64,000 nt of DNA, from positions 1,302,001 to 1,366,000 of the forward strand of contig NZ_LT703003.1 of NCBI RefSeq assembly GCF_900149695.1, in the 5' to 3' direction. Below the pieces are notes generated by a model that searched no databases, was not told the DNA's origin, and was given only the letters and a program-made list of their open reading frames with translations. The position numbers and the translations under genes are program-made. The first letter of the stretch is position 1; each line of letters starts with the position of its first letter. Below are positions 2,640 through 5,850 of this stretch, in pieces. This DNA is from Anderseniella sp. Alg231-50. GTDB lineage: Bacteria > Pseudomonadota > Alphaproteobacteria > Rhizobiales > Aestuariivirgaceae.

Positions 2640-2911
2640 TTAGAGCCTTTGAGATCTAAATAGAAACGCTTGACCGAATTTTTTTTTGCGTTCGCTGGCT
2701 AGGCACGGGTCTCGCCGTGGTCTGGTTGACCACAAGAGAGCCGTAACGCCGTCCAGTGGACGCAAAAAACCGGCCTTCGGTGGACCAAATCAGTCCATCG
2801 GCGTCGTTGAAAAGCTCGCCCGATGCACCACATCGCGCTTCGCTTTTCGCCTAGCCGAGTAAACTGATTTGGTGCCATCAAGAATTTCTATTTAGATCTC
2901 AAAGGCTCTAA
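2640..2911. mobile_element. MITE-like element with perfect 27-bp inverted ends
   Basis: The arms at 2640-2666 and 2885-2911 are exact reverse complements over 27 bp (left end TTAGAGCCTTTGAGATCTAA). A second, internal inverted repeat of 11 bp (ACCAAATCAGT at 2784-2794, its complement at 2863-2873) is nested inside. The 218-bp core holds no convincing gene. TA dinucleotides sit at the outer ends, as would be left by a transposase that duplicates TA (IS630/mariner type), but this is inference. The element fills the gap between the 3' end of xerC and the start of the DAO-family gene, so it must carry or abut that gene's promoter. Confidence 0.7.
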
Positions 2912-2918
2912 ACTGCCG

Positions 2919-3881
2919 TCAACCGGCGCGTGGGTGAGCCTTGTCGTATTGCGATAACAGGTGCTCGCGGTCGACGCCGGTATAGACTTGTGTGGTGGAC
3001 AGGCTGGCATGGCCGAGCAGTTCCTGAATGGTGCGCAGATCGGCACCGCCGCCTAGCAGATGGGTGGCAAACGAGTGGCGCAGGGCGTGGGGTGTCGCGG
3101 TTTCGGGCAAGCCCAGTGCCGAGCGAAGTTTCTGCATCAGGAGCTGGATATTGCGGGCGTTGAGCCTGCCGCCGCGTTTACCGACAAACAGCGGGCCTTC
3201 CGGATCAAGGCCAGGCGTCAGGTCGATATAATTCTTTATCGCGTCGGCCGCAGCGGGCAAAACGGGCACAAGCCGGGTCTTGCTGCCCTTGCCGAGAATA
3301 CGCAGCACGTCGTCATTGGGTGGTACTGGCGCCTCATGCCGGTCCAGGTTCAAGGCTTCCGATATGCGCAGTCCGCAGCCGTACAATAACATCAGGACAG
3401 CCGTGTCGCGGGCAATGATCCAGGCTTCTGCAGCACCGGACATATTGCTTTCGACCAGATTCACCGTCTGTTTCGCAGCTTCCGTATGCAGCGGTTTTGG
3501 AATGGCATGGGGCAGCTTGGGCGAGCGCAGGGTGGCAACGGCCGGGTTGCGCAGAATGCCTTCATTGTCGAACCAGCGGTACAAGGTGCGGATGGCGGAC
3601 AGTTGCCGCGCCATGGTTCGGCTTTCAACACCGGTATTGCGCCTTGCTGCCATGAAGGCGCGGAAGTCTAGGGGCTTGAGGGTTTCCAGGTCACGCAAGG
3701 AGGCGGGGCGGCCCAGGTGATCTGCCAGGAAACGGGTGAACTGGGTGATGTCGCGGATGTAGGCATCCAGGGTGTGCGGGCTGACCTGTTTCTCAATGCC
3801 CAGATGGCCGACCCATGCGGCTATCTTTGCAGCGGCATCGTCAGCAGCATTGAACTGGATAGGCTGGTCGGCGGATGACAT
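2919..3881 (-). CDS. xerC: Tyrosine recombinase XerC
   Basis: A 320-residue site-specific recombinase that, with XerD, resolves chromosome dimers at dif during division. The N-terminal SAM-like core-binding domain spans about residues 20-105 (VSPHTLDAYIRDITQFTRFL). The catalytic domain retains the full set: Arg in YGCGLRISEALNL, Lys in GKGSKTRLVPV, the HxxR of HALRHSFATHLL, the His of LLGHASLSTTQ and the nucleophilic Tyr in the next residues (VYTGV). I prefer XerC to XerD because of the divergent N-terminus and the typical alphaproteobacterial location near priA and lpdA; the two paralogues are hard to separate without alignment. The ATG at 3881 gives the usual family length. The gene ends just before the inverted-repeat element. 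Confidence 0.88.
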   Translation of the reverse strand: MSSADQPIQFNAADDAAAKIAAWVGHLGIEKQVSPHTLDAYIRDITQFTRFLADHLGRPASLRDLETLKPLDFRAFMAARRNTGVESRTMARQLSAIRTLYRWFDNEGILRNPAVATLRSPKLPHAIPKPLHTEAAKQTVNLVESNMSGAAEAWIIARDTAVLMLLYGCGLRISEALNLDRHEAPVPPNDDVLRILGKGSKTRLVPVLPAAADAIKNYIDLTPGLDPEGPLFVGKRGGRLNARNIQLLMQKLRSALGLPETATPHALRHSFATHLLGGGADLRTIQELLGHASLSTTQVYTGVDREHLLSQYDKAHPRAG

Positions 3882-3978: not shown

Positions 3979-5850
3979 CTAATTCTTGTGTGGCGATGAC
4001 GTATTTGGCGCTCCTTGCTTGGGCGATTTACCTTTCGACTTTGCGGTCGGTTTTGCATTTTTGTTTTTGTTTTTGTTTTTGTTTTTGTTTTTGTTTTTGT
4101 TTTTGTTCTTACTGCGCGACGGTTTGGACGAATCGGATGTGGTTTGCCCGGATCGCCACTTCTCTTTGTTTTTCCCTCTCGGTTTTGGTTTCGACGCGGC
4201 GCGATCATGAGGCTTCTTGGTGCTATGCGGCGGTCTAGGATCATTCGGGGTCGAGTCAAAGTCTGGCTCAGCGTCAAGGCGTTTGAGCACGGCACCGGCT
4301 TCAAGCGTCATATCGGGCCCGACGCCTTCGAGAAACCTGTCTGCGCTGGCTGCCGAAATCTCGACAAAGCTTACATCCTGCTGGATGCGGATTGCGCCAA
4401 TCTGCTTGCTTGAAATGCTGCCCACCCGGCACAGCATCGGCAGCAGCCAGCGCGGCTCGGCATTCTTCGACCGCCCGATCGAGATCGAGAACCAGACACT
4501 TGGTCCGAACGGCTCTGAGGAACGCGGCTTCCGTTCGCGTTCCGGCGCATGCGGTGTGGCCGCGGACAATTCTTCCGGCGCAGATACCTTCGCATTGTGC
4601 AGCCGCAAGTAGGCGGCGGCGATCTGCTCGACGCTGTGCCTGTCGACCAGCTTGGTGACGAAACCGCGTTCGGCGTCGGTGACCTCTTCTTCCCAGACAG
4701 GATTGGACAGCAGCCGCTCTTCATCCCGGGCCAGGACATCGCCTGCCGATGGTGGCTCGCTCCACTCGGCACGCACCTTGGCGCCCTGTAACAGCCGTTC
4801 GGCCTTGCGGCGCAGTTTGGCGGGCACAATCAGCGCGCTGACGCCCTTGCGTCCGGCCCGCCCGGTGCGCCCGGAACGGTGCAGCAGGGTTTCTGAATTC
4901 GACGGCAGGTCGGCGTGGATCACCAGTTCCAGCTTGGGCAGGTCGATGCCGCGCGCGGCCACATCAGTGGCCACGCAGACCCGCGCGCGCCCGTCGCGCA
5001 TGGCCTGCAGCGCATGGGTACGCTCGTTCTGGGTCAGTTCGCCGGAGAGCGCCACGACAGAGAATCCCCGGTTTGAAAACCGTGTCGTGAGCCGGTTGAC
5101 GGCGGCCCGCGTATTGCAGAACACCAGCGCGTTCTGGGCCTCGTAAAAGCGCAGAACGTTGATCACTGCATTTTCTATATCGCGCGGGCTGACATTTAGC
5201 GCGCGGTATTCGATGTCGGCATGCTGGGTCTTTTCGGCGGTGGTGGTCACGCGCACTGCGTTGCGCTGGTATTTCTTTGCCAGCGCCGCGATGGCGCGCG
5301 GCACGGTGGCGGAAAACATCAGCGTGCGCCGCTGCGCAGGGGCCTCTCCCAGAATGAACTCCAGATCTTCGCGAAAACCGAGATCCAGCATCTCGTCGGC
5401 CTCATCGAGCACGATGGCGCGCAGGCTGCCGGTGGTGAGCGAGCCACGCTTGATGTGATCGCACAGCCGTCCGGGTGTTGCGACAACGATATGGGCGCCC
5501 CTGTTGAGCGCCTGGCGTTCGCTGCGCATGTCCATGCCGCCGACACATGACGCGACGACGGCGCCGGTTTTCCCGTACAGCCACGCAAGCTCGCGCTTGA
5601 CCTGCAAGGCCAGCTCGCGTGTCGGCGCGATGACCAGGGCCAATGGATCAGAAGCCGGTTCGAAATGCTCGGCGTCGCCCAGCAGCGTGGGCGCGATGGC
5701 CAGGCCGAAACCGACGGTCTTGCCCGATCCCGTCTGTGCCGAGACCAGCAGGTCGGCATCGTCGAATTCCGGTTTGGCGACTTCCTGCTGTACGGGTGTA
5801 AGGTCGGTGTATCCGCGCTGTTCAAGCGCGGCGGCGAGGGTCTTGATCAT
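3979..5850 (-). CDS. DEAD-box ATP-dependent RNA helicase (DeaD/DbpA-like)
   Basis: A 623-residue RNA helicase probably acting in ribosome assembly or mRNA remodelling. In order it has the Q-motif region (GYTDLTPVQQEV), Walker A SAQTGSGKTVGFGLAI, motif Ia PTRELALQ, motif Ib TPGRL, motif II DEAD, motif III SAT, then RecA2 motifs ATDVAARGID and HRSGRTGRAGRKG. A DbpA/CsdA-type RNA-binding domain follows around residues 455-520 (FGPSVWFSISIGRSKNAEPR). The last about 90 residues are basic and disordered, including nine consecutive Lys-Asn pairs encoded by a hexanucleotide microsatellite. I start it at ATG 5850, not the upstream in-frame TTG at 5868. No neighbour is co-oriented closely enough to suggest an operon. 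Confidence 0.92.
   Translation of the reverse strand: MIKTLAAALEQRGYTDLTPVQQEVAKPEFDDADLLVSAQTGSGKTVGFGLAIAPTLLGDAEHFEPASDPLALVIAPTRELALQVKRELAWLYGKTGAVVASCVGGMDMRSERQALNRGAHIVVATPGRLCDHIKRGSLTTGSLRAIVLDEADEMLDLGFREDLEFILGEAPAQRRTLMFSATVPRAIAALAKKYQRNAVRVTTTAEKTQHADIEYRALNVSPRDIENAVINVLRFYEAQNALVFCNTRAAVNRLTTRFSNRGFSVVALSGELTQNERTHALQAMRDGRARVCVATDVAARGIDLPKLELVIHADLPSNSETLLHRSGRTGRAGRKGVSALIVPAKLRRKAERLLQGAKVRAEWSEPPSAGDVLARDEERLLSNPVWEEEVTDAERGFVTKLVDRHSVEQIAAAYLRLHNAKVSAPEELSAATPHAPERERKPRSSEPFGPSVWFSISIGRSKNAEPRWLLPMLCRVGSISSKQIGAIRIQQDVSFVEISAASADRFLEGVGPDMTLEAGAVLKRLDAEPDFDSTPNDPRPPHSTKKPHDRAASKPKPRGKNKEKWRSGQTTSDSSKPSRSKNKNKNKNKNKNKNKNKNAKPTAKSKGKSPKQGAPNTSSPHKN
4058..4105. repeat. Hexanucleotide microsatellite (TTTTTG)8
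   Basis: Eight perfect tandem copies of TTTTTG on the plus strand lie inside the helicase gene. On the coding strand they read as AAA-AAC, giving most of a run of nine Lys-Asn pairs. The unit is six bases, so slippage would change tail length by whole dipeptides and keep the frame. Confidence 0.95.

Follow-up and report, generated by a model that had tools for sequence, protein, structure and literature searches.

The closest described relatives of the element reported here are IS630-family MITEs, themselves relatives of Tc1/mariner, which share with it a short non-coding sequence, inverted ends, TA borders, many copies and ISs carrying the same end boxes. In contrast to these, the middle of the element's arms was hypervariable but matched, its core consisted of two long hairpins in which pairing was kept, and no such IS was found in its own genome. 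QMITE2 of Coxiella burnetii is described as a MITE with 23-29 bp ends, a 113-145 bp core and a strongly folded predicted transcript, but with duplications of 7-9 bp where the present element has TA (PMC10969869). REP and REPIN palindromes are also repeated extragenic palindromes, described as 20-40 bp long with a GTAG or CGTC tag at one end (PMC3733652, PMC3116915), whereas the present element is 266 bp long and has TAGAGC at both ends; its length and ends place it outside both groups. Br-REP1 of Bradyrhizobium is likewise an alphaproteobacterial repeat, with three palindromes and the centre CCGGAATCTCGAGATTCCGG, and was set apart from the element by its published description (PMC5082802). For the matched arms, the nearest process is quasipalindrome template switching, which makes or keeps inverted arms perfect. 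It is known in E. coli to make imperfect inverted repeats more perfect (PMC7202029) and has been proposed to maintain hairpins (PMC8794818); these sources describe it for reporters and RNA genes, while here it is proposed for a mobile family. In the literature searched, no description of this element family was seen.

The window (the whole stretch of 64,000 nucleotides of Anderseniella sp. Alg231-50 that was analysed) carries the element between two minus-strand genes, which we take to be xerC (2919-3881) and a DAO-family gene (1263-2633). An earlier note had described a non-coding element with exact inverted ends at this place, and this was confirmed: the outer 27 nt (2640-2666 with 2885-2911) were exact and TA was found at both borders. 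The arms in full (2640-2673 / 2878-2911) were 34 nt long and 94% complementary. Since T2640 and A2911, the outermost pair, are located beyond the TA, the element including its TA dinucleotides spans 2641-2910 (270 bp). The features were as follows.

2641..2910, forward strand: whole element with flanking TA, from the sequence, 13 other places in the own genome and a site that is empty in four congeners.
2641-2642 and 2909-2910: flanking TA dinucleotides, with the element proper at 2643-2908 (266 bp).
2641..2673, forward strand: 5' arm, composed of the TAGAGC terminal box, a variable middle, a GAA-C box and TTGA, from inverted-repeat detection, per-position conservation in 71 copies and IS630 ends in the same register.
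2674..2773, forward strand: core hairpin I, corresponding to helices 2-5 in the consensus structure of 25 copies.
2780..2878, forward strand: core hairpin II, corresponding to helices 6-8 in the consensus structure of 25 copies.
2814..2839, forward strand: hairpin II tip with consensus GCTTGCCCGATGNNCNNCATCGCGCT, conserved more widely than any other sequence of the family, from the exact pattern in at least 120 stretches and from 15/385 genomes of the class at no more than one mismatch.
2878..2910, forward strand: 3' arm, reverse complement of the 5' arm with the outer part exact, from inverted-repeat detection and conservation in 71 copies.

The window copy differed from the tip consensus GCTTGCCCGATGNNCNNCATCGCGCT at one position. 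The nested inverted repeat of the earlier note was present and formed the stem of the second, inner hairpin (ACCAAATCAGT / ACTGATTTGGT), and a further inner inverted repeat paired 2682-2698 with 2753-2769. The reported lack of a gene was also borne out, as the element had no gene-sized ORF and its longest frame was 60 aa. The single-strand fold of the element reached -149.3 kcal/mol against -76.3 ± 4.8 kcal/mol for shuffles (z = -15, equalled by 0 of 200 shuffles) and the opposite strand gave z = -13.9. The stability of the fold was far beyond chance.

The reading of the element as a MITE was supported by its shortness, lack of coding, inverted ends, dispersed copies, empty sites at three loci and ISs with matching ends in relatives. 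The own genome (4.61 Mb in 8 contigs, 99.4% complete) held the element at 14 places including the window copy, 12 of them full length with both ends and two partial. The 27-bp arm that the earlier note had recommended as a search handle turned out to be unique to the window copy in the own genome, where it matched only its own other arm; the arm is thus the least conserved part of the element and not the most. A second recommended check, for an empty site in the xerC-DAO gap of close relatives, was positive: the element was absent in G001, G002, G003 and G004, the congeners with both flanks matched, and the flanks were directly joined there with 1 to 79 bases between the flank matches. G005, G006, G009, G012 and G015 gave no judgeable flank pair. 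The window insertion is therefore confined to its species among the genomes in which both flanks were found, with single-TA precision unreadable at this site because the short gap has diverged. The site of a second own-genome copy was empty in G001 and G002, and that of a third (L013) in G002, G003 and G004. An element occupying the same place in distant relatives with no copies elsewhere, which according to the earlier note would speak against a MITE, was not seen, the site being unoccupied in relatives.

At the TA of L013, G001 carried an apparently unrelated insertion of ~220 bp instead (L283 / L288; G001:C14, between 94428 and 94656). This insertion starts with TAGAGC, ends with GCTCTA, holds a GTCATTCCAGCGAAGGCTGGAATCC palindrome and has a clean TA duplication compared with G003. 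A clean TA against an empty site was seen for this different TAGAGC-ended insertion and not for a copy of the family.

Searches with the window element as query gave matches in 13 of 60 genomes (own included). The hairpin II tip was found in exact form in at least 120 stretches of genome contigs and, at no more than one mismatch, in 15 of 385 genomes drawn across the class (own included; backward control 0), so the family is broad but patchy across Alphaproteobacteria. Among the matches listed (80 titles), the carriers of the tip were Alphaproteobacteria or unspecified Proteobacteria, with a range that extends from Hoeflea and Nitratireductor as far as Thalassospira and Inquilinus; Thalassospira mesophila and Inquilinus limosus were among the carriers. 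Plasmid and phage collections gave no match to the element. For comparison of copies, 108 places were found first, and those without findable arms were then left out together with L034, a duplicate of L103. A total of 76 places were kept at an arm score of at least 40, ends were recognised in 72 of them (not in L058, L084, L033 and L044), and the nested inverted dimer L082 was dropped, resulting in 71 full copies. For one comparison, the subset of 55 copies that were <95% identical was used.

The ends of the 71 full copies were TAGAGC in 54 and TACC in 17. TA was found on both sides in 47 of the 54 TAGAGC copies, a count that is not independent because the ends were located with the TAGAGC motif itself. 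The next base outward was C on the left in 36/54 and G on the right in 36/54, which suggests YTAR targets. TACC copies showed a 3-bp TNA-type duplication, identical in 11 of the 17, which differs from the IS630 rule, and no partner element was identified for this end class. Outside Anderseniella, further ends (TAGCCC, TAGTCC, CTAGTGGC and TTAGGGCC) were found around the same hairpin II tip in a survey that judged the loci not marked 'edge'. L203, L163 and L202 (Inquilinus, Rhodospirillaceae) had TAGTCC or TAGCCC ends and the same tip in otherwise different letters, and the folds of L163 and L203 reached -194 and -223 kcal/mol. In addition, at five own-genome copies (L011, L012, L013, L020 and L021) the stop codon of a neighbouring gene, as placed by rough ORF calls, coincided with the TAG at the element end.

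The guess of the earlier note at an IS630-like full transposon was supported, in that nine IS630-family ISs with matching ends were found in the same order, though none in the own genome. G004 carries L147, a complete IS630-family IS of 1,095 bp with OrfA/OrfB (NF033545, E 2.2e-14 and 3e-36), whose ends start with TAGAGCGG and have GGATC or GAATC at positions 23-27. Eight further IS630 elements of the order, 1,048-1,087 bp long, had TAGAGC ends (one TAAAGC). The nine were drawn from 19 loci examined, the rest being partial, cut, or with other or no recognisable ends. Overall, the nine ISs (1,048-1,095 bp) carried TAGAGC in 8/9 and TAAAGC in 1/9, and 8/9 had a GAATC box at 23-27 at one end or both. 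The arms of the element had both IS630 boxes at the same spacing, and the commonest versions at 23-27 were GAATC, GAACC, GAAAC and GAAGC. An IS630-type MITE with end boxes in the same register is well supported.

Searches of the own genome with PF13358 and NF033545 gave no match and hence revealed no IS630 partner present there today. In a set of 60 genomes that includes the own one, 13 were element-positive and 13 IS630-positive above the cut-off, with 3 shared (G004, G006 and G044); presence of the element and a strong IS630 match did not go together in this set. The transposase must accordingly have arrived and been lost again, or be divergent. Other candidate partners were rejected. With 0 matches to PF01609, the own genome gave no sign of an IS4/IS5 partner, and the 2-kb arm pair in L127 proved to be an IS701-family IS (NF033540, 6.6e-120) within a copy, its transposase gene (L127:967-2316) lying at CTAG inside hairpin I of a G006 copy. 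The arm pairs of L175 and L207 enclosed long ORFs which by eye did not appear transposase-like.

The element is an unusual MITE, since the middle of its arms was the most variable part and yet was complementary within each copy. The arm middles occurred in 60 distinct versions in 71 copies. Within a copy, the match between the two arm middles was 0.95 (54 copies, minimum 0.81) compared with 0.60 in the IS630 ISs (9 ISs, maximum 12/16) over the middle 16 positions, without overlap (Mann-Whitney p = 4.6e-7, with copies that are not independent). The matching is therefore a property of the element and probably not a demand of the transposase. In closely related copy pairs, the arms diverged at two to three times the rate of the core. 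With rising divergence, the share of positions with two-sided arm differences rose from 3% to about 47%, while that with one-sided differences was steady at 5-9%. Read by hand at a single diagnostic position in each copy, the arm types were equal in 3 of 4 single-hairpin copies, as opposed to 2 of 19 two-hairpin copies for which both ends were listed (for G006, among the copies listed). The single-hairpin forms were rejected as proof of arm copying and are a hint at most, because a plain deletion together with one substitution would explain them equally.

Pairing in the core was assessed on alignment A1, which comprised 25 of the 71 copies (<88% identical, 301-nt forms left out). The consensus structure of these diverse copies had 103 predicted pairs, 73 of them with two-sided changes. 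Cells were paired in 95.8% of cases versus 81.2 ± 0.4% when shuffled and at most 39.4% when slid, and 381 cells had two-sided changes versus 97 in shuffles. Transcribed RNA tolerates G.U pairs and not A.C pairs. The G.T:A.C ratio of the element, counted on RNAalifold pairs on which it depends, was 122:104 on the fold of one strand, 162:100 on that of the other and 95:101 on the pairs common to both folds, the last being the fairer count. The control, RNase P RNA from 30 relatives taken out of 58 listed matches, gave 152:14, 15:78 and, on common pairs, 77:13. The balance of G.T and A.C in the element (95:101), against 77:13 in RNase P, indicates that the pairing is kept in DNA. Covariation with G-U tolerance on a transcribed strand, as in structured RNA, was not found in the element, and with 0 Rfam matches the arms did not appear to belong to a conserved RNA, the other finding that the earlier note had set against its own reading. 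Conserved mispaired stretches persisted inside both hairpins, and the hairpin architecture was kept across unlike ends. Homology between hairpin I and reversed hairpin II is not claimed, because only L021 beat all 300 shuffles (43 vs. a maximum of 41) and the other four did not.

The variants included single-hairpin forms of 158-163 nt, forms of 301 nt, forms of ~365 nt with a 102-nt two-hairpin insert, the inverted dimer L332 and a copy containing IS701, which suggests that hairpins are gained and lost as units. Smaller repeated hairpins were nested inside copies in G004 and G005 (L324-L331, L333-L336, L339 and L340); one of these was a two-hairpin unit of 102 nt, located inside a main hairpin or between the two, and the other a GGAGCG...CGCTCC hairpin within hairpin II.

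Overall, the element is probably a non-autonomous IS630-type MITE with stems kept complementary, most likely by fold-back copying. An IS630-family transposase acting in trans would recognise the TAGAGC terminal box and the GAATC-like box 16 nt further in, and would insert the element at TA with a preference for YTAR targets. The letters between the boxes and in the core would be largely free as long as the stems stay complementary. During replication, the palindromic strand would fold back and the nascent strand would serve as template; a change in one arm would thus be copied to the other, so that still-active lineages would carry matched arms and hairpins. Such templated re-matching would be the cause of the matched arms and stems, and the conserved hairpin II tip may have a protein-binding or structural role.

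The main rival of fold-back copying is selection acting on the same MITE, where transposition or persistence needs a DNA cruciform or single-strand hairpin and only matched copies stay active. Strand-symmetric two-sided changes fit any DNA-level pairing, and selection for a cruciform predicts the same two-sided changes as fold-back copying. The hairpin architecture retained across unlike ends and the conserved mispaired stretches, which were not ironed out in either hairpin, also point towards selection. The related IS630 ISs with mismatched arm middles (0.60) argue against it, since the transposase there can probably do without paired arms, and we regard selection as somewhat unlikely. It is improbable that the element is a MITE served by a different transposase family, such as one that duplicates TNA, and that its TAGAGC resembles IS630 ends by coincidence: the TNA duplicated in 11 of 17 TACC copies and the own genome without IS630 would agree with this, but nine IS630 ISs had TAGAGC or TAAAGC, and in eight of them one end or both also showed the second box, equally spaced. 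The very stable fold and the strong covariation would be explained by a conserved structured RNA with a regulatory or catalytic function, its mobility being incidental. This reading is disfavoured as highly improbable, given that neither strand showed a G-U excess compared with 152:14 in the RNase P of relatives, that no Rfam match was obtained, that the window copy was absent in congeners and that occurrence was patchy.

A conserved RNA is commonly considered proven when base pairs change on both sides. The family passes the covariation test with ease and fails the strand test which real RNA passes, and it is therefore a natural control for RNA discovery; its many independent copies could make DNA template switching between inverted arms measurable in nature. 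More tentatively, the copies may represent a class-wide mobile DNA family that inherits pairing and not letters through fold-back synthesis, with a core that has been joined to two or more types of end and a hairpin II tip that may bind a factor. Fold-back synthesis would then keep arms and hairpins matched and produce strong covariation without RNA function.

Finally, the suggestion that the element provides the promoter of the DAO-family gene was unsupported, as the search detected no promoter-like site within it; the sole match was on the minus strand at 2633-2604, outside the element and between it and the DAO gene. Elsewhere in the window, an in-frame run of TTTTTG hexamers at 4062-4112 lay at the 3' end of a putative DEAD-box helicase gene and encodes a Lys-Asn repeat tail. 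It is possibly a length-variable tract.
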